NCBI GenBank assembly: GCA_905160935.1
Contig: CAJHZI010000592.1
Span: forward strand, 145,001 to 209,000
DNA length: 64,000 bases
Reading direction: 5' to 3'
Origin: Enchytraeus crypticus
Lineage: Eukaryota > Annelida > Clitellata > Enchytraeida > Enchytraeidae
Below the pieces are notes generated by a model. It was not told the DNA's origin. It made no database searches and was given only the letters and a program-made list of their open reading frames with translations. Both the position numbers and the translations under genes were made by a program. This document shows positions 7,001-63,069 of the stretch, piece after piece. Every line of letters starts with the position of its first letter. Position 1 is the stretch's first letter.

Positions 7001-10000
7001 TCATATATACTATTACAGTTTTACCACGAGACTAACTGGGCCGCTAGGGCAGGAGAGGGCGGGGCTAAGCTGCCTCAGATCATAGGCCTAACGGCCTCAC
7101 TGGGGGTGGGCGGGGCCAGTGGCTCGGCCCTGGAGATTGACATGGCGCTGGGTCACTACATCAGACTCTGCGCTAACCTGAACTGTCCTGAGATCACCAG
7201 TGTGAGGGGTCAGCAAGAACTGGATGAGCTGATGCGCCTGAATCCAGTTCCAGGCAAGGATCAGATACTGGCGGTCACTCCCAGGTCCAGGGATCATCCG
7301 TTTTACGTGGTGAGAGCTATTAGCAAATATTGATCATAGTACTGGCTGGAGCCAGTGGCAACGTCGGTAAGATACTCGACCGCAGATCAGTAGGTGCGTG
7401 GTTCAAATCCTGGGCTCGCCCGTCACTGACATCGCTTTCCAGTGAGGAAACTGACGTTAAACTTAGCTTTAGCTTTTTTTAAAGTAATAAATAATAATAA
7501 CGTCTGACAATTTCTATAGCGGTGTCATGGCCGGTGTCCGGTCTTAGAGACCACCTTACGGGTTCCTGGCAGGTTATTATTAATCCTTTCTACGCTCAAT
7601 CATATCTTTGCTATTGACAGCGCCAATCGGCAGCTAGCTCCGATACAAGATTAACCTTCCATGGGCCCATGGGGATATCCATCATTACTTGACTGACCTG
7701 GGCTTTGAACCCAGACCACTTGTATCCAAGGCGAACACTTTAACAGTTACGCTATATCGCCTCCCTGTTATTTGTAAATTTGTATTGAGATAAGCAAATC
7801 AACGAAGATGATATATAAACTTTTAATTTATTTCATCTGTGGATGATTTTAATATTATTATTTTTGACTTTTCCTCCACCTCGAATCAGATCAAAGCTGT
7901 CAGAGATACTTTTAATCGCGCAAGATAAATTGTAATTGAGTTTTCCTTGTGTGGATTATTTACTTGATAAAATGCGAGAAATTAGCAGCTTTTGAAAAGT
8001 TTATGCAATTATGTGGTAAACTTTGGATGGTTCTTGATGTTGTCCTGTAGAATGGTGTGTATAATGAAGGAGATAGGGCAGATGGCAGAGCCTCGATTTT
8101 TAAAGCACACTGTATAGTGATGTAACAAGTGTTTGATGGTGCTTGATGTTGTCTTCTGATTATTCGCAGGGAATGGTGCGTATGATGAAGGAGATAGGGC
8201 AGATGGCAGAGCCTCGACTACCAGAGCCCTCTGTTGAGCGAGGCACTCAGCAGTTTGAGAACTGGGTTGTGTCGCTGCTGATGAACGCAGAGGCGGAAGG
8301 TTTAGAAGAGAGAGTCTGTGTGCTGGAGGCAGTGAAACAGATTAACTCTGCTCTCATCTACTACAATGATCTACGTGCTAGAGTTTGTATAGGCAGTGAA
8401 ATAGATTAACTCTTCTCTCATCTATTACAATGATCTATGTGCTAGGGTTTGTATAGGCAGTGAAACAGATTAACTCATCTCTCATCTCTTGTATTATCAC
8501 ATTATATTGTGCTGTGTATATTTTTACTTCTTTCAAATTATTGTCTTTCCTTTTCGAGTGTCAGTAACAAGATAATAGCTTGCTGCTGTCGCTCCAATTT
8601 TCCAACGAGTTCCAGTTTTACTCTGGAACTCGTTGAGAACTCTTGAAAAGTGGAATGGGAACACATGATCGAATTGCAAGTGGAAAAATTCCGACCCGTA
8701 GAAAGTAAAGTAGGCGTTCCGGTGTACCAGTGTACCTACGCGTACATTGTACTGTTGATAGGACCAATAAATAATACAAATAAAAATAAAAATGTTAAAT
8801 ACACTGTCATTTCCACACATATATACAGTGGGATTGGCAAAGATTTCAAGATATGGCAAGGCAAATGAACATATACTATCAAATAATATTACCTTTTTAC
8901 ACCGACTCATAGAAAACAGTTGTGGTATTATTTTGTGCCTAGGACGCGCTATCACACCTGGACTCTACATTCAGACGAGAGAGTTACCTGGCAGCTGAAG
9001 AGCCGACCAACGTACGACAGAGGATTGAGAGCTGCTACCAGGCCAGTAGGGTGTCTCTGGCGTATCTAGCTGACCAAGAGAGGCTGAGTGATAACGCTAA
9101 GCTAGACAAGCTCTGTCAACTGCTCAATGATCTGTATGATGGACACACTGATGTCAGGGGTGAGATTGATTGATTGATTGACTGGTTGATTTATTGATTG
9201 ATTGGTTGATTGATTGATTGGTTTATTTATTGATTGATTGATTGACTGGTTGATTTATTGATTGATTGATTGGTTGATTGATTGGTTGATTGATTGATTG
9301 GTTTGTTTATTTATTGATTGATTGATAATACCTAGTTTGATAAGCTCTGTCAGCTGTTCGATGCTCTTTATAACAGGCGCACTGATGTCAGGAATTAAAA
9401 CGATTAATTAATGGATTGATTGATAGATTGATTGATTGAATGATCGTTGATTAATTTCTAGATTAGTCAATTAATTCAGTGATTGAATTATTGATTAGTT
9501 GATTTATTGATTGATTAATTGATAAATCGATTGATTGATTTATTTATTAGTTGATTAATTAATGTATTGGTTGATTAATTTATTGATTGGACGATCGATT
9601 GGATGACTGATTTATCGATCACTTGATTTACTTAATGATTGCTTGAGTTATTGATATGGCATATTTTATATTGCTTTGTTTGTAGAATGGATGAGAGGGA
9701 CTGTGTACTAAATAATTTTAGTTAATTACTCTAAACTATAAACTGAACTTAACTGAACGCCTTGAGACTCAAATAATCTAACACGTGTGTTAGTTTTTTC
9801 TCAGTTTCTTAGCTCATGTGTTTTACATTGTCATGTCTGATGGGAGCACTCTACGCTATGATATTTGTTATATGTAGGAATAGTGTTAACTAGAACACGC
9901 ATGAACGCGGAGGCACTGGTTAAGCTGATATCTGAACACGAGATCTTAAGGTTCAGAGTGTTTCCTGGTAAGCTTGTGGGACAGGGAGGCAGGGACGGCT

Positions 10001-13000
10001 ATATGACTGACACCGAACAAGAGGATGTGCTGAGGAGATTCAAACTGGGTGAGTAAATAATTGTGTGAATTACTGCAGGATTGATTCGTCAAATATTAGA
10101 CAAATTTACTGAAATTTAGATTTATTTTCTATTGAAGCCATAATTTTGCCTAGGTTATCAGCAATTCTTTTTGCCTAATTTCCACCAATCAGTCCATCCG
10201 TGACTTTAATCAATATTTCTCAGCTCGTCGCTGTTCTTGATTGGTTGAACGTCTCAATAGCTCAGTGTGCTGAGCGTACAGAATCTGAGGTGACTGTTCC
10301 AGAGGTCCTGGGATCAATTCCCGGTAGAGCTGATCAGAGAATACTATCTCTGACATTCACAGGACTGGCAGCGTGGATAACTGACTATAAAACGCTTAAC
10401 AGTACGTAGGACAGAGAGGATTTGAGGCAGTATATTCGTTTCCCGACCCTAGTTAAACTGGGCTTCAAGGGAAGATGATGATAATGATGATGATGATGAT
10501 ACTAATAGTGTTTGATATCATCACGGACACTCTATGTATGTAACAGGGCGCACCACGCAGTACGAGACAGATCAGGGATGTAACCTGCTAGTGGCCACAG
10601 ACGTTGCTCAGGAAGGTCTAGACATGCCCAAATGCAGCTTCGTGATTCGCTACAACTTTGTGAGTAATGAGATCGGCGGCGTCCAATCACGAGGCAGGGC
10701 GCGGGCAAGGAACAGCGAGTGCTATCTGATAGTGGACCGGGGCTCAGTGAACGAGAAGAGAGAGTACGAGAACCTGGAGAAAGAGCATCTGATGCTGCTG
10801 GCGCTGCAGGATATCAGCGTGATGGAGAGAGGAAAGGTGGAGCGGCTTCTGGAGCTAGCTCAGGTTGGTTGTAACAGCCTCTAGAGTCTAGCCTAGAGGA
10901 GGAAATAGACGTTAATTTATTATTATTATTATTACTTATATTTCGATTATTATTATTATGATTATTATTATGATTATTATTATGATTATTATTATGATTA
11001 TTATGATGATTATTATGATGATTATTATTATGATTATTATTATGATTATTATTATGATTATTATTGTGATTATTATTATGATTATTATTATGATTATTAT
11101 GATGATTATTATTATGATTATTATGATGATTATTATTATGATTATTATTATGATTATTAGTATCATTAATATTGTCATTATTACCGACGTCGCCACTGGC
11201 TCTAGCCATTGACAACGTCGGTAAGATATTCGACCGAGGATCAGTATGTTCAGGGTTAAAATCCGGGATTATCTTGTCACTGATATCGCTTTCAACTGAG
11301 AAAACTGATGTTAACACTAGTTTTATTATTAATAGTAATATTATATTTTTAATGTCCTGGGCTGTAGTAGATCGTGAGCCAAATACAAGATAAAACGAAT
11401 GTTAATTTATATAGGTTCTAATTCCTAAGTCACTTACGATGTCTGAAGCGACAGAGTTGATGGGACCTAGTCTGTTTCCTTAAACTTTGATTTCTGATTT
11501 CATAAATTCATTTTAATATTTAATAAAATATGCCTGTTGCTCTTTCTTTGACCATTATTAGTTGCAAAACTATCTTAAAAGTGTCCGATGTTGTCATGGT
11601 CTATGATAATTGTTTCTAGAAAGAACTACGGCTGGATCACGACAGAAGTGCGAGTGAGAGAACGATGAAGGCCGAGCAGTTCGACCCTACACAAGTGCTC
11701 CTGTACTGTAAGTCCTGCCACACACAGCTCTGCCGTGGTGCTGACGTCGTGTGCTACAACAACAACTACATCTGCACCGACGAGAACTTCCAGGAAAAGA
11801 TCCTGGTAAAGAGGAAGAACAGGCAGGAGTTCCGCAATGACGTCCACGTGGGTTAGTAGTCACTCGATTCTCTTTATATGGGCAGGATGAATTGTACTTA
11901 ACGTCTAGGTCAGAAGGACGAGATCTTCTTCGAGACTCGATATTCTGAGCTACCATTTAAAAGATTGGTATTGTTTCAATTTAAGGCACTTTTAGATTCG
12001 ACAATTCAGTCAACGGTATATTTTAGATTCAAATAAGTAAAGTTTTATATAATGTAGACGAATGTTCTGTTAATGTGGTGTTTAAAGTTTTATATGTAAT
12101 GTGGACGAATGTTAAAGTGGTGTTTGAAGTTTTATATGTAATGTGGATGAATGTTAAAGTGGTGTTTAAAGTTTTACATGTAATATAGACGATGTTAAAG
12201 TGGTGTTTAATGTTTTATATGTAATGTAGGCGAATGTTAAAGTGGTGTTTAAAGTTTTATATGTAATGTGGATGAATGTTTAAGTGGTGTTTAAAGTTTT
12301 TTATGTAATATAGACGATGTTAAAGTGGTGTTAAAAGTTTTATATGTAATGTAGGCGAATGTTAAAGTGGTGTTAAAAGTTTTATATGTAATGTAGGCGA
12401 ATGTTAAAGTGGTGTTTAAAGTTTTATATGTAATGTAGGCGAATGTTAAAGTGGTGTTTAAAGTTTTATATGTAATGTAGGCGAATGTTAAAGTGGTGTT
12501 TAAAGTTTATATGTAATGTAGGCGAATGTTAAAGTGGTGTTTAAAGAGATACAATCATTGATTGTCGTTGTTTCACTTCATTGCAGTTTATTTGTATGTA
12601 TCAAAATTGTGTATTATAATATATGAGCACTTTTCTTATTTAGTCAGTATTTACAATATTTTTTTTACTTTTCACATTATGTTAACGAAGTTCATATATA
12701 GTTTGTAACGCATTTGCTGTTGTACTTAATATCACACAGTTTATTTTGTTGCATTTGATATCACACTGTTGCATTTTGTTACAGGTTTGTTGCATTTGAT
12801 ATCACACTGTTGCAATTCGTTACAGGTTTGTTGCACTTGATGTCACACTGTTGCATTTCGTTACAGGATTGTTGCATTTGATATCACACCATTGCATTTC
12901 GTTACAGGGTTGTTGCACTTGATGTCACACTGTTGCATTTCGTTGCAGGTTTGTTGCACTTGATATCACACTGTTGCATTTCGTTACAGGTTTGTTGCAC

Positions 13001-13280
13001 TTGATGTCACACTGTTGCATTTCGTTGCAGGTTTGTTGCACTTGATGTCACACTGTTGCATTTCGTTGCAGGTTTGTTGCACTGCAAAGAGCCGAGATGT
13101 AACGCGAGGCTTGGAGTTAAGATAGAGTACAAGCGAGGGAGGAGGAGGGAGGGAAACTCTCTGGCCAAGGATGGAGTCTGCTGGAACATGCGTGGAGAGG
13201 CATTGTACAAGAACATCAAGAAGTGGTCCACTGTGCCTTTCCCCATCCAGGAAGAGGCTCTCTATGATCCTACAGATTGA
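3112..13280 (+). CDS. RIG-I-like receptor (RLR), complete ten-exon gene
   Basis: Cytosolic RNA-sensing DExD/H helicase of the RIG-I/MDA5/LGP2 family, expected to bind double-stranded RNA with ATP and start antiviral signalling. Exons: 3112-3379, 4082-5446, 5967-6181, 7019-7309, 8170-8382, 8943-9159, 9878-10048, 10547-10863, 11620-11851, 13072-13280. All join in phase to 1165 codons plus TGA. Residues 1-89 form a death-fold, best read as a DED; about 91-470 are a low-complexity linker starting with poly-Q. Helicase motifs follow: I APTGSGKT (497-504), II DECH (600-603), III LTAS (640-643), V LVATDVAQEGLD (928-939), VI QSRGRAR (960-966). The C-terminal domain keeps the zinc cysteines C1049, C1052, C1101 and C1106. 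Typical RLRs have about 680-1,020 residues; the excess is the linker. RIG-I or MDA5 orthology cannot be decided here. The splice model is inferred, without transcript evidence. Confidence 0.9.
3704..3990 (+). mobile_element. 3' end of a non-LTR retrotransposon (LINE family B), sense to the RLR gene
   Basis: Translation from 3704 to the stop at 3962-3964 stays open for 86 codons. It contains the end-of-polymerase signature RKKSWIGNILRGEG, then GKRDRGRPRLDMLDD and DREEWRRY. The sequence after the stop (GCAGTGCATTAAGAGAGAGA) is the 3' tail. Reverse copies of the same tail lie at 6.7, 57.9 and 63.1 kb. The element is 5'-truncated inside RLR intron 1. Confidence 0.8.
4010..4042. repeat. (TA)n microsatellite in RLR intron 1
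   Basis: Uninterrupted TA dinucleotides ending about 40 bases before the exon 2 acceptor, directly after the LINE tail. Confidence 0.9.
4082..5446 (+). CDS. RLR exon 2: poly-Q linker and helicase motif I
   Basis: Acceptor GTCGTAG|TTTACG, donor CTGG|GTCTGT; 1,365 bases and open throughout. It opens with a run of ten glutamines, then about 370 residues rich in S, N, G, D and T with short internal repeats (EGPSL twice). At its end the RecA1 fold begins: a Q-motif-like IQLYSYQLELAQPAL, motif I APTGSGKT and motif Ia around LFVVCIRNLIEQQ. The linker has no recognised domain; it contains PTQEN and PLEEHD, which fit loose TRAF-binding consensus forms. Confidence 0.88.
5521..5660 (-). mobile_element. 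tRNA-derived SINE family 1 copy (RLR intron 2)
   Basis: On the minus strand it reads head (CCAGTGG, GTAAGAT, CTCGAC), a Pol III B-box-like GGTTCAAATCC, and a tail GAGGAAACTGACGTTTACC; the 3' end carries a doubled AAGCTAAGGTA. The family is represented at least a dozen times in the window. Confidence 0.8.
5908..5923. repeat. Perfect palindrome TCAGGGACGTCCCTGA
   Basis: Sixteen bases identical to their own reverse complement, 44 bases before the exon 3 acceptor. Near-identical copies at 16.26, 33.00, 54.77, 60.86 and 62.97 kb suggest a mobile-element tail carries it. Confidence 0.75.
5967..6181 (+). CDS. RLR exon 3: helicase motif II (DECH box)
   Basis: Acceptor TTGTTAG|GCATGC, donor AAG|GTAATG. 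It encodes GMLLKEDNV through FDLIIMDECHHTNLKHPYNN. The Walker B box DECH with HPYNNIM after it is diagnostic of RLR and Dicer-type helicases rather than ordinary DEAD-box proteins. Confidence 0.9.
6190..6345. repeat. AAT-rich low-complexity DNA in RLR intron 3
   Basis: Irregular AAT/TAA trinucleotide runs with AAGAA interruptions. The rest of this intron up to 6718 shows no recognisable element. Confidence 0.7.
6718..6842 (-). mobile_element. LINE family B 3' tail (RLR intron 3)
   Basis: Reverse complement of the tail seen at 3.7-4.0 kb: CTGCCTACTGGCAGGTCCAT followed by GGTATATAACGCCTCCAC and CTTCACGTCCACATG. Only the last 120 bases or so are present. Confidence 0.75.
7019..7309 (+). CDS. 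RLR exon 4: helicase motif III
   Basis: Acceptor ATTACAG|TTTTAC, donor GTG|GTGAGA; 97 codons in phase 0. It starts FYHETNW and contains LPQIIGLTASLGVGGA, the conserved RLR motif III region, then the residues leading to the RLR-specific insertion. Confidence 0.9.
7344..7482 (+). mobile_element. tRNA-derived SINE family 1 copy (RLR intron 4)
   Basis: Nearly complete copy in sense orientation: GGCTGGAGCCAGTGGC head, B-box GTGGTTCAAATCCTGG, body GTCACTGACATCGCTTTCC, and tail AGCTTTAGC followed by a T run. It reaches to within 35 bases of the preceding donor. Confidence 0.85.
7500..7770 (-). mobile_element. tRNA-derived SINE family 3 copy (RLR intron 4)
   Basis: On the minus strand the head reads GGCGATATAGCGTAACTG, B-box-like GGGTTCAAAGCCC, then GGGCCCATGGAAGG and a 3' end CGCTATAGAAATTGTCAG. 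The same blocks in the same order occur at 36.77-37.03 kb, which defines the family. Confidence 0.75.
8015..8100 (+). repeat. Degenerate upstream copy of the RLR exon 5 start
   Basis: The block TTGATGTTGTCCTGTAGAATG with AATGAAGGAGATAGGGCAGA and TGGCAGAGCCTCGA repeats the acceptor and first codons of exon 5, 121 bases upstream of the real ones. It keeps a TAG before AATGG that could act as an acceptor, then diverges into TTTTAAAGC. Confidence 0.85.
8170..8382 (+). CDS. RLR exon 5: helicase insertion region
   Basis: Acceptor TTCGCAG|GGAATG, donor AGA|GTTTGT; 71 codons in phase 0. It encodes GMVRMMKEIGQMAEPRL through INSALIYYNDLRAR, matching the Hel2i helical insertion, where YND with a following DAL/HL element is typical. 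Both ends of this exon are duplicated in the flanking introns. Confidence 0.85.
8329..8497 (+). repeat. 64-bp tandem repeat across the RLR exon 5 donor
   Basis: The unit runs from GCAGTGAAACAGATTAACTC through the exon end and donor to TTTGTATAG. It is present fully at 8329-8392 and 8393-8456 and partly from 8457. The second donor copy is preserved (GCTAGG|GTTTGT). An in-frame TAA falls early in copy two, so use of the distal donor would truncate the protein. Confidence 0.9.
8500..8942. other. Remainder of RLR intron 5
   Basis: AT-rich sequence with a short A-rich run near 8765-8800. I see no repeat family and no coding signal. Confidence 0.5.
8943..9159 (+). CDS. RLR exon 6: insertion / second RecA start
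   Basis: Acceptor TGTGCCTAG|GACGCG, donor AGGG|GTGAGA. It encodes DALSHLDSTFRRES through QLLNDLYDGHTDVR. Phase 0 entry and one-base exit match exons 5 and 7. Confidence 0.88.
9165..9335. repeat. (TTGATTGA)n array after RLR exon 6
   Basis: Degenerate ATTG/TTGA units begin five bases after the donor. The same simple repeat resumes at about 9410-9655 after a displaced copy of the exon 6 end. Confidence 0.9.
9326..9400 (+). pseudogene. Displaced copy of the RLR exon 6 3' end
   Basis: GATAAGCTCTGTCAGCTG, GATGCTCTTTATAACAGG and CGCACTGATGTCAGG repeat the last 70 or so bases of exon 6 with scattered substitutions. The donor GGTGAG is lost (GAATTA). It sits between two (TTGA)n stretches, so the duplication included exon end plus intron start. 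Confidence 0.8.
9410..9655. repeat. (TTGATTGA)n array, second block
   Basis: Imperfect GATTGATT and TTAATTGA repeats, more diverged than the first block. Confidence 0.85.
9878..10048 (+). CDS. RLR exon 7: helicase motif IV region
   Basis: Acceptor TATGTAG|GAATAG, donor CTGG|GTGAGT. It encodes IVLTRTRMNAEALVKLI through MTDTEQEDVLRRFKL. The IVLTRTR strand and the GQGG loop fit motif IV and the following loop of RecA2 in RLRs. Confidence 0.9.
10235..10430 (+). mobile_element. tRNA-derived SINE family 2 copy (RLR intron 7)
   Basis: Head GTCTCAATAGCTCAGTGTGC, B-box-like GGGATCAATTCCCGG, then CTGATCAGAGAATACTATCT, ATTCACAGGACTGG and TAAAACGCTTAACAG. Better preserved copies lie at 34.05 and 38.06-38.25 kb. 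Confidence 0.7.
10547..10863 (+). CDS. RLR exon 8: helicase motifs V and VI
   Basis: Acceptor GTAACAG|GGCGCA, donor CTCAG|GTTGGT. It encodes QYETDQGCNLLVATDVAQEG and IGGVQSRGRARA, the catalytic RecA2 motifs with both arginine-finger-type residues, and runs on into the pincer helices that join RecA2 to the C-terminal domain. Confidence 0.92.
10917..11165. repeat. (ATTATTATG)n array in RLR intron 8
   Basis: About 250 bases of ATTATT/ATGATT units. Open frames here are poly-Ile or Asn/His repeats and are not genes. Confidence 0.95.
11184..11335 (+). mobile_element. SINE family 1 copy with inverted head (RLR intron 8)
   Basis: Sense copy with GACAACGTCGGTAAGATATT, CGACCGAGGATCAGTATG and GGGTTAAAATCC. 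It is preceded by a short reverse copy of its own head (CCGACGTCGCCACTGG), a decayed version of the snapback seen at 43.36 kb. Confidence 0.75.
11620..11851 (+). CDS. RLR exon 9: first half of the C-terminal domain
   Basis: Acceptor GTTTCTAG|AAAGAA, donor GTGG|GTTAGT. It encodes the last pincer residues and the RLR CTD start LLYCKSCHTQLCRGADV; C1049 and C1052 form the first zinc knuckle. The CTD is the lid that recognises RNA ends. Confidence 0.9.
12040..12546 (+). repeat. 42-bp minisatellite in RLR intron 9
   Basis: Twelve or so copies of a unit containing TAATGTAGGCGAATGTTAAA and GTGGTGTTTAAAGTTTTATA. The last copies are nearly identical, so the array is young or being homogenised. Confidence 0.95.
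12742..13082 (+). repeat. 41-bp minisatellite carrying the RLR exon 10 acceptor
   Basis: The unit includes TGCATTTCGTTGCAG|GTTTG and ends CACTTGATGTCACACTGT. AG acceptor copies end at 12784, 12825, 12866, 12907, 12948, 12989 and 13030, before the real one at 13071. Because 41 is not a multiple of three, most upstream acceptors shift the frame; the in-phase one ending at 12948 meets a stop soon after. Confidence 0.93.
13072..13280 (+). CDS. RLR exon 10: end of the C-terminal domain
   Basis: Acceptor GTTGCAG|GTTTGT, stop TGA at 13278-13280. It encodes GLLHCKEPRCNARLGVKIEY and KKWSTVPFPI. C1101-x4-C1106 is the second zinc pair with the same spacing as in human RIG-I, and W/PF near the end matches the family. 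The exon's first codons are part of the repeat unit upstream. Confidence 0.92.
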
Positions 13281-14045: not shown

Positions 14046-14047
14046 AA

Positions 14048-16678: not shown

Positions 16679-16730
16679 CACATTGTTCTATTAGCTATGA
16701 TCTCTTGCAGTCCAGTATCACGGTTCTAAG
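16679..16730 (-). pseudogene. Duplicated C-terminal end of the muscarinic receptor gene
   Basis: On the minus strand this reads LRTVILDCKRS and a stop, against LRTMRLDWKRT and a stop at the true gene end. Removing the hAT element and one copy of its target duplication leaves this as the first copy of a 58-bp tandem duplication of the gene's end. Confidence 0.85.
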
Positions 16731-17661: not shown

Positions 17662-17745
17662 GTTCTAAGGAAAGCTTTCTTGTTCTATTAGCTATGTTCT
17701 CTTCCAGTCTAGTCTCATGGTTCTAAGGAAAGCCTTTTTGAACTG
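17662..17745 (-). repeat. 58-bp duplication of the receptor 3' end
   Basis: GGTTCTAAGGAAAGC occurs at both ends of this stretch (17660s and 17719 onward), with the stop codon region between. With 16679-16730 it defines a 58-bp tandem duplication that was later split by the hAT-like element. Confidence 0.8.
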
Positions 17746-20700
17746 CTGGTTGGCGAGAGCGTAGCAGAAAGGATTGAGAGGACTGTTGAGGTAGCAGAGC
17801 CAGTAGGAGACGTTGTAGAGGAGAGGTTGGACGCACTGGTGCCTCTGAGCGGCGGGTGCCCCGGCCTCGCCTGCTGCCCCGCCACTGGCGCCCCTGCAGA
17901 AGCTCATGATGAGCGATAGGATGTGCCAGGGAATCCAGCAGACCACAAAAGCTCCTAGGATTATCGTGATGGTGCGCAAAGCTTTGCGGGTTCTGTTCTG
18001 ATTGCGGGCGTTCTGTCGCTGAACTTTCTTCACCTCGGCGTCAGCCCGGCGTCCCCCCGCCGTTATGCCGCCCAGAGAGATTCCGCCGCCGCCCAGCAGA
18101 CCCCCGCCCAGGCGCGCCGTCAGCTCCCCCGCGCCCTTGCTCAGCGCGGTACTGCGGAAAACCTCTGCAAGCAGCGATCCCTGACGTCTGGAAGACTGTT
18201 CCGCTGATGTATCTGCAGCTGTGGCTTCCTTTGATGAATCTGCGTTTTGTGTAAGTTTTGGTAAAGCCTTCAACGAGCTCTCGACTGGTTGTGAACTGCC
18301 TGGTTGTTGTTTATTAGTCATCGTCTCTCCCGAGTTGGTTGGCATGGAGACATAGCCGCTGGTGTTGTTTGGTTGTTTGTTGGGCGGAGAATGAGACAAC
18401 CAGTTGGACACTGTGGAAGATGTTTGTTGTCTCCACCAGTTGGGCGTGAACTGTTGTGTCACGCTGGGCGTGGTTTCCTCTACGCCACTCTCGTCCTCGT
18501 CGCTATCTCCGTAGTCGCTGTCCCTGCCAGGAGAGGCGGGGCGTTTGCTTGACTGATGTTTCATTTCCTTATTAACTCCTCCCTTTATCCTATCATACGA
18601 CGCTAATTCAATGTTTACTTTTGGTTTAGTGGGCGGAGCTTTTCGGCGTCCTATCATTGATTGACGCAACCTATGCACAGTTGAGAAGCTGCTCGAGAAG
18701 CTGCTGGCAGCTGCTGCAGAATGCTCGTAGCTGATGGCAGCTGCTGCAGAATGATCGTAGCTGTTGGTTGTCTCCTGACCCAGTGACATCATCTTGTGCC
18801 ACAGTCTCTTCTGCAGGTGCTTCTGTTCTTGTCTTCTCACCAAGCCACTGCTCTTCGATTGTGCATCGTGGCCCGAAGTTTTTGAGTTGAAAAATTTGCT
18901 TTTACCCTCACCGGAAGCCTTCATCAGAACAACGACGTCACGTTTATCGTTGGTTTCGTCTTCGCACGGTGGCTCGAGGTTGTTCCCTGCTTTACTCTCT
19001 AACACATCCGCGCTTTTACTCTTCATTGTCATGTCTTTTAGTTTACCTCTTTGTGTGCCGCTATCAGCTACTGTGCCGCTATCAGCTGCTATGCTGCTAT
19101 CAGCTGTTATGCCGCTATCAGCTACTGTGCCTCTATCAGCTGATGACCTGAGGTGTCTGGATTGGCTCTTTCTCGTGCTGTTCACTGAGCTATCATCTTC
19201 ATCGACGTACTCTATGCTCAAGAGCCTGCTGATCTCACCAGTGACCGCCCTGGCAGCTCTGCCCATTTTCTCTTCACATCCAGTCTTTAGATCACCCGAT
19301 GTGGCTCCGCATAAACTACTTACCAGCACTGCTTTAGCTGCAGCTGTGTTACCATCAGATTTTATATTTTCATCAGCGACAGTGTTACCATCTTGCCTAT
19401 GAGCAAGAGTGTAAGATGTGTTCCCGTCTTGCCTGTGAACCTTAGCGGAAGCAGTGTTACCATCTTTCCTGCAATACTTATCGGAAGCGGTGTTACCATC
19501 TTTCCTGTGAGCAAGAACGGAAGCAGTGTTACCATTATGTCTATGAGCAAGAGCGGAAGCAATGCTACCATCTTGCCAAACTTTGTCGTGAGAGAACTCT
19601 GACTTATGAAGCGAGTTATCTCCTAGAAATATACACGTGACCAGCTCTGGGCTGATCGCTCCACTCTGATCCCCACTGAGCTCTGATGTGTCACTCCTCC
19701 AGCTTGCTCTATCTGTCGAAGTGTTACAAGTGGCGCCACACGAAGATGACGAAGTCATACTCGTCTGTCCCTCTAAATATCTCTCTGTATCGCTGCTTAT
19801 TCCGCTGGATAGCCCTGTCAGTTCTCTTGTTTGTTCTGCTCTTTGTCTCAACTCATATATTTGTGAGTAATCACATGCCGCTACTGGTGTTCTAACTATC
19901 TCTCTCCTTATCGTCTTCCACTCCTCTTCTATCTCTTTACCTCTCTTCCCCTCTCCCTTTATCCCTTTTGAGCGTTTTGTGTCCAGCACGTCGTCACTGC
20001 TGACGTATTTATCGTTCCTTATTTCATTACCGTTCCTGATTTCGTTATCGTTCCTGATTTCGTTATCGTTCCTGATTTCTTTATCGTTCCTGATTTCTTT
20101 ATCGTTCCTGATGTCGTTATAGTTCCTGATTTCGTTCTCGTTCTTGATTTCTTTATGGCTGTCTTTTTCTATATATATTTCGTTTCGCACGTCGTTTTCG
20201 TTCCTGACATCTTTTTCTTTATCTCTCGTACTGCTGTAAATCCTGCCAGTGCTCGTTTTACTCTTCGCGAATGCTATTCTCCGCTCTCTAGCGTCACCCT
20301 CCGGAGCTGTTCCCACTTCCATCTCTGGATCATTTCCCGCTTCCATCTCTGGACCTTTTCCCATTTCCATCTCTGGACCTTTTCCCACTTCCATCTCTGG
20401 ACCTTTTCCCATTTCCATCTCTGGACCTTTTCTCATTTCCATCTCTGGACCTTTTCCCTCTTCCATCTTCGGGCCTCTTCTCGCTTCCTTCTCTGTACCT
20501 CTTCTAGCTACCATCTCTGTACCTCTTGTAGCTATCATCTCTCTAGCTCTTTCATATCCAGTTGACGACTGCAAGCAATGAGAAATGCTTTCAAACGACT
20601 CGTCCACGGAATCTCGAGCAAGTATCGCAGGATTGGCTGGTAACATTCTCTCTGTGTTTGTATTGTTAGATGAGAGCATGGCTGCGTCGAGCGTGGTGGT

Positions 20701-21405
20701 GGTGGAAGTGCTGCCATACGAGTGTTTTCTGCTGTGGACACTGTTGAGTGGGGCGATGGTATGACGGCGCTGCTCGGATGTAACTAGATGACGATGATGA
20801 TGATGTTGGTGACGTTGTGTTGAAGGTTGATAAGATTTCCTTCGATCGTTTTCATTTACCTGAGCACGAGTAGACTGAAGTAGTTTTCCTATGAGTTCAT
20901 CGTCGTCGTCTTCATCTTCATCGTCATCTTCACCTAGTATGGCGACCTCTAGCGCTTTCTCCACAGAACTTATCTCGTGTTCTATTCGACTCAGTTCCTC
21001 CACAACATAATCTCTCAGCGCTCTATCGTCACAAGCTCCTCCCATTCTTCTGTCATCTGACGTCTTTACGCCACGCCCATCTTCATTCTCATTGGACAGA
21101 CTCCGTCTAAGCTCCGCCTCGTCCAACTCAGGCCACGCCTCAAACCGCCCCGATCCCGGCGGTAATCTCTTATCTACGCAAGTTCTGCTGACGTCATCCG
21201 AGCATGTTTTGATGACGTCACGGTTTCGTGTGATACTAATGACGGAGCCTATTTGTGTGACGGTACGACCGGCAGCCATAGAGAGGAGGCATGCCATGTT
21301 CTGCTCTCGCTGTGCCCTGGCTCGTCTGTGCAGGCCCAGTGCTACCCTGTAGATACCAGCGTACAGGCAGAACATCGCTACCACTGTTATCCAGAAATAC
21401 CCCAC
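17692..21405 (-). CDS. Receptor exon 3: TM5, giant intracellular loop 3, TM6, TM7
   Basis: Acceptor CTGTTTCAG|GTGGGG at 21405; stop TAG at 17692-17694; 1,237 codons. TM5 is [20 protein letters not shown]. The loop spans about residues 250-1360 (21327-17995) and is built from low-complexity repeats: [8 protein letters not shown]-type units, RNDKEI units, a DGNTAS-type unit and ADSG units, with acidic DEDDDD and poly-His/Ala runs. TM6 and TM7 occupy the last 100 residues, with a short tail [11 protein letters not shown]. Confidence 0.9.
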   Translation of the reverse strand: [1237 protein letters not shown]

Positions 21406-24400
21406 CTGAAACAGTTGATAACAACAACAACCACTGTTATCCAGAAATACCCCACCTGAAACAGTTGATAACAACAACAACCACAGAGCTACCACTGTTA
21501 TCTAGAAATACCCCACCTGAAACAGTTGATAACAACAACAGCCACAGAGCTACCACTGTTATCCAGAAATACCCCACCTGAAACAGCTGACAACAACAAC
21601 AACCACAGAGCTACCACTGTTATCTAGAAATACCCCTGAAACAGTTGACAACTACTGCAGAGCTACCACTGTTATCTAGAAATACCCCTGAAACAGTTGA
21701 CGACAACTACTGCGGAGCTACCACTGTTATCTAGAAATACCCCTGAAACAGTTATATTACACATATAATAGCTATTAGTCATGTAATAGATATTAGTCAT
21801 GTAATAGATATTACACATGCAATAGCTATTACACGTGTAATAGATATTGCACATACATGTATTATATCTATTAGGCATGTAATAGATATTACACATGTAA
21901 TAAATATTTCGCATGTAATATCTATTACACATGTAATGCTGGATGGCGGTGTTGATATCTAACCTGTAGGATGCAGGTAAACACGGCGTAGTCCATATAC
22001 TGCACGTAGCACTTCCCATCAGGCACTGTTCGGCGACCCTCGAAGTGCTGCCAGCCGAAGATGGACATGAAGAAGACGGTGGAGGGAATGATCCATGTGG
22101 CCGCCACGAGACAAAGGACTCGCCCTTCTGTCCGCCACTTCCGGTAGCGAGCTGGGAGCTTCACGGAGCAGAACCTGGAAAAATATCCATCGGACTTTAT
22201 CGGTGCCTTATTAGAAATTGATTATTTATTATTAGACTTTATTTGTGTTTTAATCAGAACTTCTGTGAAGGAGCGTTAGATGTTTGGTTATATTGGCGGC
22301 ACTTGTTAGGTATTTAGTTTTACCGCAGAGCAGCTGATATGAGGTTCAAATCCTGTGCTCTCCTGTGTCTTATGTCCTGTCAAGCTACGAAACGTAATCA
22401 CATAATCACGCACAGTAGAGCTTGATATAAGTGAAGAATTAACCACATAATCACGCACAGTAGAGCTTGATATAAGTGAAGAATTAGCCACATAATCACG
22501 CAGAGTAGAACTTGATATAAGTGAAGATTTAACCACATAATCACGCATAGTAGAGCTTGATATAAGTAAAGATTTAACCACATAATTACGCATAGTAGAG
22601 CTTGATATAAGTGAAGATTTAACCACATAATCACGCATAGTAGAGCTTGATATAAGTGAAGATTTAACCACATAATCACGCATAGTAGAGCTTGATATAA
22701 GTGAAGATTTAACCACATAATCACGCATAGTAGAGCTTGATATAAGTGAAGATTTAACCACATAATCACGCATAGTATGGCCTGATACGAGTGAAGATTT
22801 AAATCTAATTTTCTTTGACTGAAGACGATACTGATAACGATGAGATATAAGAATAAAAAACAAGAACTGCAGGATGAAGAGCTTAACGAATGAATTTAAA
22901 GACTCGCTCGACCAGTGATCTATCAGATAATTAAATCTTTCAGGATTTCCAATCAGATGCTGGTTGTCCACTACTCTACATAGAGTAACCTAGGCTAGAA
23001 CCTCTATAGCACAAATACTTCGCTATGTATTTAACCTGTTTGCAGTCTTTAGTGGGGCTTATGACTAACGAACACCTGTATTTTAACTTATAAAGAAAAA
23101 AATTCTGAGAGACGATAATAAGCATGTTGCAATCGCTAACATTTGAATTGACTTAAAGACTGCATGAATGTATGACTGCCTTACTGTATGACTGCATGAC
23201 TGTATGCTTGCATGACTGTTTGACTGTATGACTCTATGTCTGCTTGGCTATGACTATATGACTGCATGAATACATGACCCTATTTTGACTGTTTGACTGT
23301 ATTGCTGCATGACTGCATGACTCTATGTCTGCTTGACTAGGACTCTCTATGTCTGCTTGACTAGGACTATATGGCTGCATGACTGTTTAACTGTATGACT
23401 GCATGACTGCACTACTCTATGTCTGCTTGACTATAACTATATGACTGTATGACTGTGTGACTGTATGACTGCATGACTGCATGACTGCATGACTACATGA
23501 TTGTATGACTGTTTGACTGTTTGACTGTATGGCTGCATAACTGTTTTACGGTATGACTGCATGACTTCATGACTCTATGTCTGCTTGAATATGACTATAT
23601 GACTGTATGACTGTTTAACTGTATGACTGCATGACTGCTTAACTGTATGACTGTATGATGGTATGACTGTATGACTGTATGACTGCATGACTGTTTAACT
23701 GTATGACTGTATGACTGCATGACTGTTTGACTGTGTAACTGTATGACTGTATGATTGTATGACTGTATGACTGCATGACTGTTTAACTGTATGACTGTAT
23801 GATTGTATGACTGTATGACTGCATGACTGTATGACTGTATGACTGTTTGACTGTTTGACTGTTTCAGCCTTTGATATGGTTTCGTTATACTACAATAATA
23901 AATACTCAACTCGTTAATCGATAGATAGATTGCACCCACCTGTCAGCTGTAATACAGAACACGGTGTAGATGTAAATAGTTTGCACCCACCTGTACACCC
24001 TGTAGATGTAAATAGATTGCACCCACCTGCACACCCTGTAGATATAAATAGATTGCACCCACCTATCAGCTGTGATACAGAACACGGTGTAGATGGAGCA
24101 CAGACAGGCTGTATAATCTATCGACAGCCAGAGATCGCACATCGTTTCTCCCAGCAGCCAGTGCTCTCCTGACAGTAGGTAGATTGTATAGAGCGGCATG
24201 GAGGTGGAGCCTATGAGCAGATCGCTGAAGGCCAGGGAACATATGAAGTAGTTGGACGGCTGACGGATGGAGCGCTCGAAGAAGAAGGACAAGATGACGA
24301 CGAGATTGCCAGTGATGGTCACTAGGCTGATGATGGAGGCGAGAGTGGAGAAGAGCGCGATGTGCCAGACAGGGAACTGGATGAAGGTTATCTGAGGGGA

Positions 24401-28687: not shown

Positions 28688-28806
28688 AAAATAGAGATAC
28701 TCGACCGCGGATCAGTATGTGCGGGGTTCAAATCCTGGGCTCGCCCATCACTGACATCGCTTTCGAGTGAGTAAACTGACCTTAACCTTAGCTTTACCAG
28801 CTTTAC
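28688..28806 (+). mobile_element. SINE family 1 copy, 5'-truncated
   Basis: Begins within the head at GATACTCGACCGCGGATCAG; has the intact B-box GGGTTCAAATCCTGGG and tail CTTAGCTTTACCAGCTTTAC. Confidence 0.88.
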
Positions 28807-35647: not shown

Positions 35648-35683
<36 letters not shown>

Positions 35684-49842: not shown

Positions 49843-50210
49843 TCTTAAAACACTTAGCTACTAGCATGCTACTGCAGTCCATGGTTATATCGAGCCTCGT
49901 TCATATTGAAAGCTATCTAATTGATTCTTCTAAAATTTCACTTAATAGAAGTTACTGTATCTTTCATCATTGACTATCTGTCGGTTTAGCTTTCTTGTAT
50001 CAGTTTCCGATGTTGTTATGAACGACGATAGCATTGTAATTATGTGCGTTTGCTATTTGATAGCAACAAACAAGTGCGCAAAACCAATACCGTTAGTTCA
50101 AGTGTTACAGCTTAGGCTGTCGGACTGGCGTTCAGTAATTCTAATTAGACAATGATGTTAGGACAAGCATATTGTCGCAGCCTAGGCGGCGCGTTGTTAT
50201 CACTTGTAAA
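49683..50210. other. Intergenic DNA with a (CT)n run
   Basis: CT dinucleotides at 49800-49841. Otherwise unique, no gene recognised. Confidence 0.55.
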
Positions 50211-50213
50211 AAT

Positions 50214-50345
50214 AGCTGGTAAAGCTAAGGTTAACGTCAGTTTCCTCACTCGAAGGCGACGTCAGTGACGGGCGAGCCCAAGATTTGAACCCCTCACATT
50301 CTGATCCGCGGTCGAGTACCAACGTCGCCACTGGCGCCAGCCAGT
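50214..50345 (-). mobile_element. SINE family 1 copy
   Basis: Minus-strand copy with a shortened head (GTTGGTACTCGACCGCGG) and B-box GGGTTCAAATCTTGGG. Confidence 0.87.
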
Positions 50346-56216: not shown

Positions 56217-57287
56217 ATGTCACGTGATAATCTCCATGACAACAGTTCTTACGTCAGTGATAACGTCACAGGTGACGAGGGTGATGACGTAGATGGATAT
56301 CACCATGGTAACGAAAGTACGACAAAGTCAGAGAGTGGTGAAGATAGTGTAGACAGAGAGAGTGAAGAAATAAAAGAAGATGCACGTTATTTAGAACATG
56401 GAGATGTTGGAGGAATTATGCATAGCGAAAATACTCTGGAATGGAAAGATGATGCTAAAAAAGAAAACACGCAAGTCGATAAGGATGACAAATTCTACGC
56501 AAATAATTCATTAATTACGGAAAACGCAAAGCAAACGGGCGATAATATAGGTATTAGGACGCTGAGCGATAATATGGATATAACTAAGCTGAGTGATAAT
56601 ACGGGTATTAGGACGCTGAGCGATATTGAAGCAATAACAGACAATACTGTTGATAATGCAGACGGCAGCAACAGGACTACTAATTCAGCTGCAGCTGAAG
56701 GCTTATTAGACGACAAGAACGCACATAGTTATGTGGGAGAAATAACAGAGGGAGCGGTAGATATCTTAGAGCCAGTCAATAAGGGCGATGTATCAACTTG
56801 TCCAAGTGAAGAACCTTCTGTTGACTCCACGCTCCACCAGTCTAACCTGGTGCCTGGTAGGACACTGGAGCAATATGGTGGAAGATCTGCAGATGGAACA
56901 CACGAGAATGCCTTACACTCTCACGCAGCAGAGAGTTTAACGAGACTTGACCCTAATCACGCAGGTCCTGGTTCAAACCCTGACATGGGTGAAATGTTGC
57001 CTGATGGAAAGGTAATCTGTTCCAGTTCAGTGGATGAACTACTAAGCGTTGAGGAGGACCTAGAGAAGGACAAGTGGAAGGACAGGGAGAGGGACAACGA
57101 CGAGGACGCAGAGACATACAGGCAGAACGGGGAGGTATCGACCAGAATCAGGTTTTCAGATGTTGAGGGGGCAGGGGAGCAGACTACCCCTGTGGGGAGG
57201 TGTAGGGGGTGGGGGGCAAGGAGGCAGTCCGATGAGCAGAGTCCTGATCCTGATGAGTTCTGGAGGAAGGACAGCACGGCTGAGCGG
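56217..57287 (+). CDS. SLC4 exon 1: acidic N-terminal extension
   Basis: 357 codons, donor GAGCGG|GTACGA. Rich in D, E, N, S and G with an internal repeat (GIRTLSDN twice, ITKLSDN) and no recognised domain. Long N-terminal extensions occur in some anion exchangers. Ending in phase 0 agrees with exon 2. Confidence 0.75.
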
Positions 57288-60200
57288 GTACGATTAATTG
57301 ATCAATCAATCCATCAATTAGTCAACAATCCATCAATAAATCAAAGAATATACATGTATAACGCTTGGTGATTCGTACGAACTTTATGTTAGAGGCTTTG
57401 ACTCTCCAATCCTACAAATTCCCCACTACAAGTCGTAATTTTAAAATTAAATTTCTAGCTATTTTTTATGCCGTGCTTAAACATTATTCATGTATATTTG
57501 AAGATTATGACCATGCTTTGTGAATGTAACCTACGTTTCCATGGATACATCACTTACATTGGTTGCTATAGATACGGCTGTTGCTAAGCGACGAACAGGA
57601 GATAGAAGGAGGGCCTCAGGGAAGAATAAAGCTGAGTCAGCACTCGCTCTTCACACAGCTCGATGTGCTCTGTCACTTCCCAGGTGGAAAGCTTGGCTGG
57701 AAGGAAATGTCAAGGTCAGTCACGTGGTCAGGTAATGTTTCTGTACGACCATGACCTTGACTTTACGACTATGACCTTGACTTTACGACCATGACCTTGC
57801 CTTTACGACTTTTCGACTATGACCTTGACTTTACGACCATGACCTTGCCTTTACGACTATGACCTTGACTTTACGACTAGGACCTTGACCTTCTTCACAG
57901 TATCAGGAATTTTCAGTTCTGGAATATATATATATATATCTCTTAGTGCACTGCCTACTGGCAGGTCCATGGTATATAGCGACTCAACTCTTTTCTCTGT
58001 CTTCCACTTTTCCTCTTCATTTCCACATATGTGTAGGTCTTTAAATCAATCTTTTGGAATATATCGGTCCAAATTTGAACTTGCTTCGAAGTATTTGAAC
58101 GATGTTGACTTGAAGAAGAGAATGATGTAATAAATCTTGCTGTTTAGAGTCCGTGTAAGTGTTGTCATAGATGAATGTTATGCGTGGCTTTGTTGATTTA
58201 ATCGCAGATGTGATCATAAATCAGCGTGACTTTGATTGCCTTGGACTCAGAGTTCTCATGAGATAATAAAAATAAGGAGCGAGCATACACGCAGAGAGAG
58301 AGAGAGAGAGAGAGAGAAAAAGAAAAAAATGAGAGAGCGAGAGAGGGATGAAATACACAGTTTGACATAGGCGCACTCACATATGGATCTTAACGTAAAT
58401 TGTTCATTTTTCTCAATATCTCTCGCAGATAATTGATAATTATCTCTCAGATCAGATCTCAGTCTTTGCCTAAGGAATCGAGTAATTGAATTATCAACTC
58501 TCTACAGATGCGCCTATGTCTGCATGACTGAAGTTCTATACAGCTGCTGCTGTCATATACAGCTGCTGTGATATACAGCTGCTGCAGTGATATACAGCTG
58601 CTTCTGTCATATACAGCTGCTGCTGTCATATGAGATACAGCTGCTGATATAAGATACATCAGCTGCTCATATGATATACAGCTATTGATAAAGCTGCTGT
58701 CATATACAGCTGCTGTTGATATGTGATACAGCTGCTGCTGTGAGATACAGCTGCTGATATGATATACAGAAGCTGATATAATATATTGCTGCTGATATGA
58801 GTTACAGCTGCTTATTGGAGATAAGTACATTTCAGGATCTGTACATCGTCTCTTGTAGAATTACATAGTAGAACCAAATCTGCACTACAGTCTAATGAAA
58901 TGGTCGGTACTACGTTAGCGTATATTATACACGGGAGTAGACGGATGTCTGACAGGCAATCGTCGCCGGAAGTGTAAGGGAAGCTTTCAGTGTGAAATAT
59001 ACCAGAGACACTCGAGCTATCGTTTAGTCACGTAATTAGCAGCTCAGTGTTGATGAGGCGTAAAGCTGGTAAAGCTAAGGTTTAATGTATAATGTTTAGT
59101 AGAGTATATCATGCTAAAGCATCTCTATACTTTACAATAGTTACAGGAAAAACAAGCAAATAAAATAAAATGCACTCAGTAAAAATCACAAAAATATCAA
59201 AAACCAAAATGTAACGTAGCTTAAATATTGCAATCTGAGAAATTTAAGAGTGAGCAGAATTTAAATTGAGTGATCTAGCAAAAAGATGTGTCTTAAGACT
59301 CTCTTTAAAGCTATCAGGTATATAAGAATGTCTCATAAATTATGGAAGTTCATTCCACAATTTGGGACCTGCTACAGGAAACGACTTGTCACCATAAGAA
59401 ACTGTACGGCATTTAGGAACAGCGAGTTTACCTGACTCAACAGACCGTAAGTTTTTCCTTACCGAACAAGAACTTAATGGTATACAATAGTCAGAAAGAT
59501 AAGACGGGGCTGAGTTAGTCAGGCATTTGAACGTGGTAAGACAGGATTTGAATTCAATCCGTTCTGGAATTTTAAGCCAATGAAGTTTCTGTAGCAAAGG
59601 TGTGGCCAAATCAGAGTGCCTCGCACGAAGAACTAATCTTGCAGCTGCATTCTGCATTCTTTGTAGTCTATCAATTACCGATTTATTGCAACATAAGAAC
59701 AGACTATTACAATAATCTAGCCTTGAGGAAATAAAGGCATGAACAAGGATTTCTGTGGAAGACTCAGACAAACATGGTTTAATACTCCATAACTGGCGGA
59801 TTTGAAAGAAACACGAAGAAGATACAGTAATTGCTTAGAATGCTGCTCAAAGTTCAGGTTAGAGTCAAAGACAACACCAAGGTTACGAAGAGTGTTCAGA
59901 ATAGGTACATTTGCTTCACCCAATGCAATCGAAGTTATATTAATTGTATTGAGTTAAGGTTAACGTCAGTTTCCTCACTCAAAAGAGATGTCAGTGACGG
60001 GGGAGCCCAGGATTTGAATTCCGTACATACTGATCCGCTGTCGAAGATCTTACCGACTTCGCCACTGGCTCCAGCCATATGATGGATAGTTATGAATACA
60101 TTTTGGAGGTAGTGATGTATGGTATAGCTAAATGTTAGTGGTTATGATGTATGGTTGTAAATACAATGTGATGGCTATATTTTAAGGTTATAGATGCATT

Positions 60201-63069
60201 TAATGGTTGTAGATGGTTGAAGTACGAGGAAAAGGTTGACGCAGGAGGTCGCTGGTCTAAACCACACGTGGGCACCACGTCACTGCGGGCTCTCACTCAG
60301 CTGAGAGGCTCTGTGGCTGATGACCACTGCGCCATCTGTCTGGACATTTCTGCCTCAGAGCAGCATCCTTCTGCTGTCATAGGTTGTCATACGCTCTGTT
60401 ATGACATCAACTGTCATAGGTTGTCATACACTTATAATAACATATCAGCTGTCATAGGTTGTCATACACATTATAATAACATATCAGCTGTCATAGGTTG
60501 TCATACACATTATAATGACACATCAGCTGTCATAGGTTGTCATACACATTATAATGACATATCAGCTGTCATAGGTTGTCATACACATTATAATGACACA
60601 TCAGCTGTCATAGGTTGTCATACACATTATAATGACACATCAGCTGTCATAGGTTGTCATACACTTATAATGACATCAGGTGTCATAGGTTGTCATAAAA
60701 TCTATAATAACATCAGCTGTCATAGGTTGTCATACACTTATAATGACATATCAGCTGTCAGAGGTTGTCATACACTTATAATGACAAACCATAGCCATTC
60801 AATCAATCAATCAATAATCAATAAGAATTTAACGTCCGGTTCGCCATAAGGCAATGTCAGGGACGTCAACTGGATTCACCCAGTGTTGATCCTGATTAGT
60901 TGTAATGCAGGTGCGATGTTCTGTCACTCGCTCTATTCTCCAATCTGTTTAAAATTTTAAAAATAACAAGTCCAGACTAAACAGAAGAATTGCGACCTTG
61001 ACATGTTATTCAGTAAACTAGCCCTGCCCAGGTAATATGTGCTAGAGAATAACTGCTGGCATTCTGTTATCAGGAAATGTTTGTTTCACCTGCGCTACAA
61101 ATCAATTAGACTCTTGTTGTCTGTGACATTCTCTACACTAAAGATTCTCTCAATTATTCTGCTTTCAGTGTCAGATTTCTGCCATTAACTAACATTAAAG
61201 TTACGATGAATAAAGACAGAACTTGACCCTAATCAAGAGGTCAAGTTTCTCTCTTGTTTTCAGACTTGTGGAACCCGTAGACCGCTTACTGCAGGTGTTT
61301 GATAGCGTCGACTTACAGAATTCTTCAACTAGGCAATAGTGTCATGTGACCTTTTTTGGATTAAAACACTGTTACATTATCAGCCTAAAACTAATCAGCT
61401 AATCCATGGTGTACTCAATCGTCTCTTTTCACTTTACTTTAGTCTATTAGAGGTTGAATCTAGGCACAAATCACAAAGTTCTGCGAGGGGGGGGAGATTC
61501 AAGCATGTAACATACCCCCTCCCTGATTTAGCTGGGGGGGGGTTTGAACGACTGGATAATTTGAGGGGTACCTGGGGGGGTCCAAATCCATTGAGAGTTG
61601 GACAGACGCTGTAATATATTGCAACTTGTGCTGATATACTTGGTGCATGAAAATGTGGCATGCTTTCAGTTTTGAGTCTTTCTTCATTTACTAAATAGCG
61701 AATTGGAATAATAATTAATAGTACTGTGCGAGTGACTACTTCAGAAGATTGAGTTTATATATTCCACATCGCAGGGGACTGAGGTACCTTTCCCTTGCTT
61801 AACCCTCAAGTGCATTGAGTGTTAGCACTCTGTGATTAATCTCTGCTATCACGCATCTAGGTGACATTTCATTTTAGTTCTGATCTCCAGACTTCATCAG
61901 ATCTCTAGGTGCGTGCTAATTAAAGAAAGCCTTCATTTGAGCGGATTTCAATGGATTAGACTGGAGTCAAGCATGGAAACAGGAACGTGATATAGAAAAA
62001 ATAGAGAGAGAAAGAGAGAGACAGAGAGAGAAACAGACAGACAGATGGTGAGAAACAAGGATAGATGCTTTCAGATTGAGCTAAGGTTTACTTAATTCCA
62101 GATTTACTTAATTAACTTAGAATCAACCTAAGCGTCAATCTAAGAATCAACCTGAGCGCTTTAATCTCGCTTCACACCTGCCTCGTATCTGGCAATAAAA
62201 TGACTACATATCGAAACGCTGTATATCCACGTTATTAATGATTGAATAACACTTTATTTACTAAATGATTGATTGATTAATTGATTGATTAAATAAATTG
62301 ATCAATCAATTAACCAATCTATAATTGATTGATCGATTCAATTTGATTAATTTATGGATATATTGATTGATTTGATTGCTTAGTTAATTTATTTGTTGAT
62401 AGATTGAAGCAGTAGTGATAATGATATCATTTCTGCGAAGAAATTCGACAACACATGATTGCTGATTGATTGATTAATTGATCGATTATTTGTTTGATTT
62501 ATTGTTTGTTTATTCGATTTATTGATAGCTTTATGGTATGATAGATTTATTGTATGAGCGATTGATTGATTGATTGATTGAATGATTGATTGATAGATTA
62601 ATTGAATGATTGATTGGTTGTTTGAATGATTGATTGATTAATTTAATGAATGACTGATTAAATGGTTCTTTGAATGATAGATTAATTGAATGAATGAAAG
62701 ATTAATAGAATGAATGACTGATTGATTGACTGACTGACTGTTTGATCATGTGATTGACCGATTGGTTGATTGATTGACTGACTGATTGATTGACTACTGC
62801 TGACAGATGCACTGGTAGAGTCAGTGAGAGAGCACTATGGTCTAGACGCGGTTGTGGCTCATCGACTTTCAGATGTGCTGCACAAGCCTCACAAGCACAA
62901 GAACAGGAGAGCAGAGAGACACCTAGTCACATTCCTCGGTGGCTCAGGTCTGTAGAGATCATGTCAGGGACGTCTCTGACATCTTCCTCCACCCACCCAG
63001 CATTTACATAGGCAGAAGTAAAACAACAATTTAAACAAATGATTAAGGCTTAAAGCAGTCAGCTAAGTT

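Follow-up and report, generated by a model that had tools for sequence, protein, structure and literature searches.

Boundary-spanning minisatellites in the genome of Enchytraeus crypticus appear to be later additions to existing introns

Introduction

Do short tandem duplications that copy splice sites create introns, or does a genome tolerate them beside introns that already exist? The question is raised by a 64,000-nucleotide stretch of DNA from the annelid Enchytraeus crypticus (GenBank assembly GCA_905160935.1, contig CAJHZI010000592.1, positions 145,001 to 209,000 of the forward strand; hereafter the window). It holds a RIG-I-like receptor (RLR) gene, a gene for a muscarinic-like G protein-coupled receptor (GPCR; hereafter the receptor) and an SLC4 bicarbonate-transporter gene, and copies of their exon-intron junctions lie in the adjoining introns. 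The original prediction for this DNA offered both answers: intron creation by duplication, or tolerance of expansions anchored at junctions. The window was selected because of its junction-copy pattern, and the analysis also covers 200 kb from elsewhere in the same assembly. We find that minisatellites across exon-intron boundaries occur commonly in this genome and that they appear to postdate the introns in a gene whose introns are old. This calls for caution in gene annotation and in claims of intron gain that are based on repeats.

Results

Copied junctions in the window

The three predicted gene models are open throughout and have homologs. The proposed RLR exons join into a single open frame of 10 exons and 1165 aa, with Pfam matches to helicase, RIG-I_C and RIG-I_C-RD, and the closest solved chain is MDA5 (E 7e-79). 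A single open frame is also formed by the three exons of the receptor gene (1460 aa, the third loop being very long), which matches 7tm_1 and is closest to M1 muscarinic (E 7e-46); the alignment with human M1 is gapless at both introns. The SLC4 gene, cut by the end of the window, has a single open frame over six exons, a Band_3_cyto match and, as its closest solved chain, the electroneutral sodium bicarbonate exchanger 1 (E 5e-37). Together the models contain 16 introns and 32 splice junctions.

When the flank of each junction (60 bp of exon plus 40 bp of intron) was aligned to its own intron, copies spanning the junction were found in the adjoining intron at 7 of the 32 junctions, all seven of them sites that had been named beforehand; at the same threshold the other 25 have no spanning copy. 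A search over 1 kb on both sides returned the identical seven, and each time the best copy lay on the side of the intron. Identity to the junction ranges from 75 to 100%, and the repeat units are listed in Table 1. As sequence, these copies are beyond chance: cross-locus controls under the same score and span limits, taking the best alignment per side only, gave spanning matches in 0 of 276 comparisons.

The copies differ in anatomy. Upstream of the RLR exon 5 acceptor lies a degenerate copy with an acceptor-like CTGTAG at ~8050 (score 95, 81% identity; Tandem Repeats Finder, TRF, and spanning alignment), and at the donor of the same exon the exon end is copied at 8446 with 93% identity (TRF and alignment). 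The end of RLR exon 6 recurs ~234 bp inside intron 6, past a GATT array (9164-9326). At RLR exon 10, an AG acceptor is present in each of the seven upstream units. The receptor exon 1 donor array combines 36-bp units with one more copy of the exon end, which places donors at 0, +36, +72 and +123. Six intronic copies span the receptor exon 3 acceptor, and the outer three read TTTCAG/GGGTA (the slash marks the junction), so that AG is kept and AGGT is lost. In the SLC4 exon 3 donor array, a string search located GTTGTCATA at 11 places, each after TCATAG or TCAGAG. Of the seven upstream RLR exon 10 units, five retain AG/GT, as do three of the six receptor exon 3 copies; the rest have lost it. The receptor stop region is duplicated as well, as had been predicted: 43 of 48 bases recur ~1 kb downstream.

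Copied junctions elsewhere in the genome

The outside sample was taken in 10-kb stretches. Contigs were chosen by number, their sequence still unread, and the remaining stretches extend contigs sampled earlier. Of the first eight stretches, five contain dispersed repeats that also occur in the window, with identities reaching 92%. Models were built for three multi-exon genes: cytoplasmic dynein heavy chain 1 (its C-terminal exons); a Delta/Jagged-type ligand with 19 exons through the stop codon, its 5' end lying off the contig; and a third gene with eight exons. Arrays had attracted attention to two of the three, and all junctions of each modelled gene were counted (n = 60).

The automatic test found copies at 6 of these 60 junctions. 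Two of the hits, at the acceptors of Jagged-type exons 13 and 14, are GATT-type simple sequence and were excluded from the curated set, and three cases were added by hand after direct alignment, at the dynein exon 2 acceptor, the Jagged-type exon 14 donor and the third gene's exon 8 acceptor, the last of which is weak (24/30 bases). The hand-curated total outside the window is 7/60, including the weak case. The third gene's exon 4 acceptor (CTCAAG/GTCATC, set by reading frame only), which lies beside a 14-bp repeat within the exon, was not counted. Over all six genes, the hand-curated set holds 14 of 92 junctions, 6 acceptors and 8 donors. With seven further cases in three other genes, junction copying is a general feature of this genome.

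Its rate lies between those of introns and exons. In the window genes, a single method scored 171 of 500 intron-interior positions, 7 of 32 junctions and 24 of 300 exon-interior positions; outside, the automatic method scored 91/500 intron pseudo-junctions and 3/300 exon interiors. In the window, an ungapped local-repeat test (22/30 matches within 1 kb) picked out 32.6% of positions in introns, 28.4% of those between genes and 11.1% of those in exons; it was positive at 6 of the 32 junctions, where circular shifts lead one to expect 8.5 (whole window) or 6.8 (within genes). For the first 47 outside junctions the same test gave 4 hits against a circular-shift mean of 7.25, with 20.2% of intron and 1.7% of exon positions positive. 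TRF arrays cover 29% of the window, 35% of its introns and 13% of its exons. Such an intermediate junction rate is what tolerance of copies in introns, and their removal from exons, would be expected to produce.

Age of the introns at copied junctions

The best solved chains for the Jagged-type gene are Delta-like 1, jagged-2 and jagged-1, with notch chains among others, which places it in the Delta/Jagged family. Its first ten exons measure 61, 134, 120, 114, 228, 47, 174, 151, 168 and 114 bases, and exons 11 to 18 measure 114, 114, 145, 86, 114, 122, 243 and 154, followed by the last exon. The part of PMC6899717 available to us documents 12 introns of human JAG1, after c.755, 886, 1348, 1395, 1720, 2344, 2372, 2458, 2572, 2682, 2916 and 3048, and these imply exons of 131, 47, 28, 86, 114, 110, 234 and 132 bases and sums of 462 and 325. 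In a comparison of spacing and phase, not a residue alignment to full-length human JAG1, 10 of the 12 introns agree with the Jagged-type gene in order and phase (c.755, 886, 1348, 1395, 1720, 2372, 2458, 2572, 2682 and 2916). The two sums equal 120+114+228 and 174+151, matched exon lengths that differ are off by multiples of three (134 vs 131, 122 vs 110, 243 vs 234), and between 1720 and 2344 there are 627 bases in the Jagged-type gene vs 624 in human.

Four introns at copied Jagged-type junctions fall in this shared pattern. Documented human introns correspond to those at the copied donors of exons 2, 14 and 17, and the intron at the copied exon 12 acceptor probably has a human match too, judging by the run of 114-base exons. 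The introns thus appear to be older than the arrays, because they match human JAG1 in spacing and phase, and the simplest reading is that all four predate them. A comparison of intron presence in relatives had been proposed with the original prediction; made here for the Jagged-type gene and human JAG1 only, it found matching introns in human at the copied junctions, the one at the exon 12 acceptor being probable.

Neighboring human exons seem to have been fused twice in the Jagged-type gene (stretches L006, L017 and L018), as 228 = 114+114 and 145 = 117+28, where the human sizes are partly our assumption. We take the single human JAG1 exons to measure 61, 120, 114, 174, 151, 165 and 117 bases.

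Discussion

A probable explanation: introns first, arrays later, in a duplication-prone genome

We consider it very likely that the arrays are minisatellites of the type called mirages in amphioxus, arising in a genome prone to duplication in which boundary copies are nearly harmless, and that the introns predate the arrays. A short local tandem duplication would now and then happen to take in an exon-intron border. The exon-proximal copy would stay the working splice site and each further copy would become intron, and for that reason the duplication would be nearly neutral. Arrays could then grow by slippage or unequal exchange. Duplications within exons would alter the protein and mostly be lost, the exception being the receptor's long third loop, in which coding repeats abound. 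For the genes of the window, the same order of events would apply.

The tolerance that had been predicted is supported, because the copies are intronic, the reading frames are intact and the pattern recurs in the dynein, Jagged-type and third genes. The predicted anchoring at junctions fares differently: there is no excess over intronic positions, and outside the window there may be a 1.5- to 3-fold excess over stricter nulls. The enrichment check proposed with the prediction, made on the 200-kb sample, gives no excess against intron positions.

Some observations weigh against our explanation. Counted as single seeding events, arrays lie across five junctions in the window vs 1.16 expected (P 0.003), and outside it TRF arrays span 4 of 60 junctions vs 1.26 expected (P 0.03), so that a modest bias towards junctions is possible. 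In the JAG1 comparison, 2 of the 12 human introns do not match, intron 18 (c.2344) being absent and intron 24 (c.3048) in another phase, again within what the available part of the source documents.

Are borders favored?

The first set of these observations is the basis of one alternative, in which duplication is seeded preferentially at exon-intron borders, through co-transcriptional structure or a change in composition, above the general rate. Pooled, the seed null predicts 2.4 arrays where 9 are seen (P 0.0003), but this figure includes the window, itself selected for the pattern. One-sided virtual-junction nulls raise the expectation in the window to between 1.74 and 3.27 (P 0.03 to 0.23), and for the 4/60 outside to 1.66 (P 0.08) or 2.69 (P 0.28). 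The coverage null finds no enrichment, the seed null some, and the one-sided nulls fall in between. Outside the window, 4 arrays stand against 1.3-2.7 expected, a possible 1.5- to 3-fold excess over the stricter nulls, with P 0.03-0.28 depending on the null. In addition, the distance profile in the window rises towards the intron and does not peak at the junction. A junction-specific excess is not clearly present, and we regard preferential seeding as quite unlikely.

Intron creation as an alternative

Under the Rogers model of intron gain by tandem duplication, a single exon segment is copied to form both ends of the new intron. Applied here, AGGT-bearing exon segments would have given rise to introns, and the arrays would be their traces. 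AGGT is found at 7 of 14 copied vs 22 of 78 other junctions over the six genes, receptor intron 2 (558 bp) is mostly tandem array, and PMC4974935 and the globin model of PMC3087553, in their accessible parts, provide precedents for intron gain. The AGGT excess, however, does not reach significance (P 0.13 for all junctions, 0.05 for acceptors and 1.0 for donors). In the window, the predicted presence of AGGT at most copied junctions is literally true (4/7, vs 7/25 uncopied junctions) and also falls short of significance (Fisher P = 0.20).

The flanks argue in the same direction. When donor and acceptor flanks were compared within each intron, with flanks of other introns as the null, none of the 45 introns of the window and outside genes (the 16 window introns included) had a similarity above the null's 99th percentile. 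The best was dynein intron 2, whose rank P of 0.014 is uncorrected for the 45 tests, and among the 16 window introns receptor intron 2 reached an in-register rank P of 0.025, also uncorrected. Four copied junctions, moreover, lie at the introns that match human JAG1. The first receptor intron also speaks against creation, as it interrupts a DRF motif in the usual phase of DRY introns; same-phase DRY-motif introns occur in many GPCRs, but its site is no proof of age, since some such introns are read as recent gains in the accessible part of PMC3151243. For the RLR gene, the available portion of PMC8998645 gave no usable intron positions. Intron creation by the repeats, one of the two outcomes originally proposed, is not supported by these results, and we judge it very unlikely.

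Splice sites in the arrays

The exon-proximal sites are presumably those used. At these sites the predicted proteins align without gaps to M1, to dynein at exon 2 and to MDA5 at RLR exon 5; a 2-residue gap lies near the SLC4 exon 3 donor, and the RLR exon 10 acceptor falls within the Pfam RIG-I_C-RD match. That the arrays are kept for useful alternative splice forms is extremely improbable: all three receptor exon 1 donor copies (+36, +72, +123) stay in an open frame, and of the 10 downstream GTTGTCATA donors of SLC4 exon 3, 8 are in frame and stop-free inside the array, but each of the seven upstream RLR exon 10 acceptors, all three frame-tested receptor exon 3 acceptor copies (of six) and, through a frame shift, the RLR exon 5 donor copy would lead to stops, conserved proteins fit the exon-proximal sites, and amphioxus mirages are described as normally spliced in the accessible part of PMC3087553. 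In-frame donor arrays were also considered as a sign of function in themselves and rejected: two of the three donor cases tested are in frame, a number too small to carry weight, and the acceptor copies tested give stops.

A further reading is that borders are mildly favored for duplication, which lays down spare splice sites, and that the receptor exon 1 and SLC4 exon 3 arrays could give protein variants differing by repeat lengths. We think this unlikely; if true, intron length and splice choice would evolve through duplication. The Enchytraeus crypticus genome would allow junction-biased duplication to be tested at scale.

Other repeats and elements

Several other features were seen in the same DNA (coordinates in Table 1). 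A degenerate TTAGGG array of ~780 bp (window 35127-35909) is internal to the contig and resembles an interstitial telomere repeat. A short dispersed repeat with the conserved core GGTTCAAATCC and flanks looks like a short interspersed nuclear element (SINE) by eye, and it is found on other contigs at up to ~86% identity. Rfam at the gathering threshold and a tRNA scan gave no matches over the whole window. The third intracellular loop of the receptor, by eye >1000 residues, contains several coding tandem repeats (17692-21405, minus strand). The N-terminal ~90 residues of the RLR (window 3112-4154) have no Pfam match and may, by eye, form a death-fold domain; a glutamine run follows at 4111-4154.

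In the outside sample, the array of 35-bp units at the dynein exon 2 acceptor (L005 590-1520) contains an insert of ~930 bp with units on both sides. Large reading frames (L005 from ~7 kb, L019, L020 and L001) may, by eye, belong to a Polinton-like or other virus-like element. A 1685-residue reading frame within a Jagged-type intron (L017 1855-6909, minus strand) is probably a retroelement. Further candidate coding frames, outside the junction count, lie for example in C100 at ~1-1.7 kb and in C500 at ~27-29 and 47.5 kb.

Table 1. Genes, copied junctions and other repeats (window positions unless stated otherwise; a slash separates the two bases at a junction)
Feature	Position	Strand	Repeat unit	Details
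RLR gene	3112..13280	+		Exons 3112-3379, 4082-5446, 5967-6181, 7019-7309, 8170-8382, 8943-9159, 9878-10048, 10547-10863, 11620-11851, 13072-13280
RLR exon 5 acceptor duplication	8022..8290	+	~121 bp, 2 copies	True acceptor 8169/8170
RLR exon 5 donor array	8327..8487	+	64 bp, 2.5 copies	True donor 8382/8383
RLR exon 6 donor	9104..9434	+	~234 bp	Junction 9159/9160; spanning alignment 75% identity
RLR exon 10 acceptor array	12745..13083	+	41 bp, 8.3 copies	True acceptor 13071/13072; TRF
Muscarinic-like GPCR gene	17692..24520	-		3 coding exons: 24520-24063, 22174-21964, 21405-17692
Receptor exon 1 donor array, DRF (DRY-type) intron	23920..24095	-	36 to 123 bp	Junction 24063/24062; TRF, alignment
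Receptor exon 3 acceptor array	21376..21743	-	50 to 61 bp	True acceptor 21406/21405; TRF, alignment
Receptor stop region	17680..17727	-		Stop codon 17694-17692; copy at 16683-16730
Receptor loop coding repeats, examples	18699-18767, 19054-19141, 19380-19577, 20009-20156, 20299-20551			TRF
SLC4 bicarbonate-transporter gene	56217..64000	+		Exons 56217-57287, 57599-57714, 60213-60382, 62807-62947, 63330-63481, 63734-
SLC4 exon 3 donor array	60369..60790	+	~39 bp	True donor 60382/60383; alignment
SINE-like repeat	7340-7481, 11197-11344; by eye 28690-28800, 50210-50340 and others			Also L003, L006
Dynein exon 2 acceptor and donor (outside)				Curated cases; direct alignment / automatic test
Jagged-type exon 2 donor, exon 12 acceptor, exon 14 donor, exon 17 donor (outside)				Curated cases
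Third gene exon 8 acceptor (outside)				Curated case; direct alignment, weak

Comparison with known systems

Boundary-spanning repeats have been described in other genomes, and we compared the present arrays with three of them as presented in the accessible parts of the sources. In potato, intron gain in an RdRp gene involved duplication over or near splice signals (PMC4974935), as in our arrays; here, unlike in potato, no new intron is seen, and the donor flank of an intron does not duplicate its acceptor flank. In human genes, internal tandem repeats lie at exon-intron boundaries in paralogs, with units averaging 30 bp (PMC2812944). The minisatellite expansion across boundaries is the same, but the human repeats vary between recent paralogs and some form novel introns, a change of structure not seen here.

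The closest parallel is in amphioxus. There, the globin genes BflGb6 and BflGb9 carry minisatellites at exon-intron boundaries, with Adh3 cited as a further case (PMC3087553), and the repeats were named mirages; PGBD5 was added later and TnC cited (PMC3902484). Splicing of these genes seems undisturbed, and the mirages were proposed as a route to new introns (PMC3087553). As in our arrays, the tandem duplications lie over the exon-intron boundary, at donors and acceptors both (PMC3087553, PMC3902484), and many but not all copies keep AG/GT, the amphioxus units being 10 to 160 bp long. The Enchytraeus crypticus pattern differs in that one unit is longer (~234 bp), in that it is known from the sequence of one assembly, and in its hosts, which are the dynein, Jagged-type, RLR, GPCR, SLC4 and third genes. 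Since the pattern has already been described in amphioxus, the present arrays are best read as a further case of mirages.

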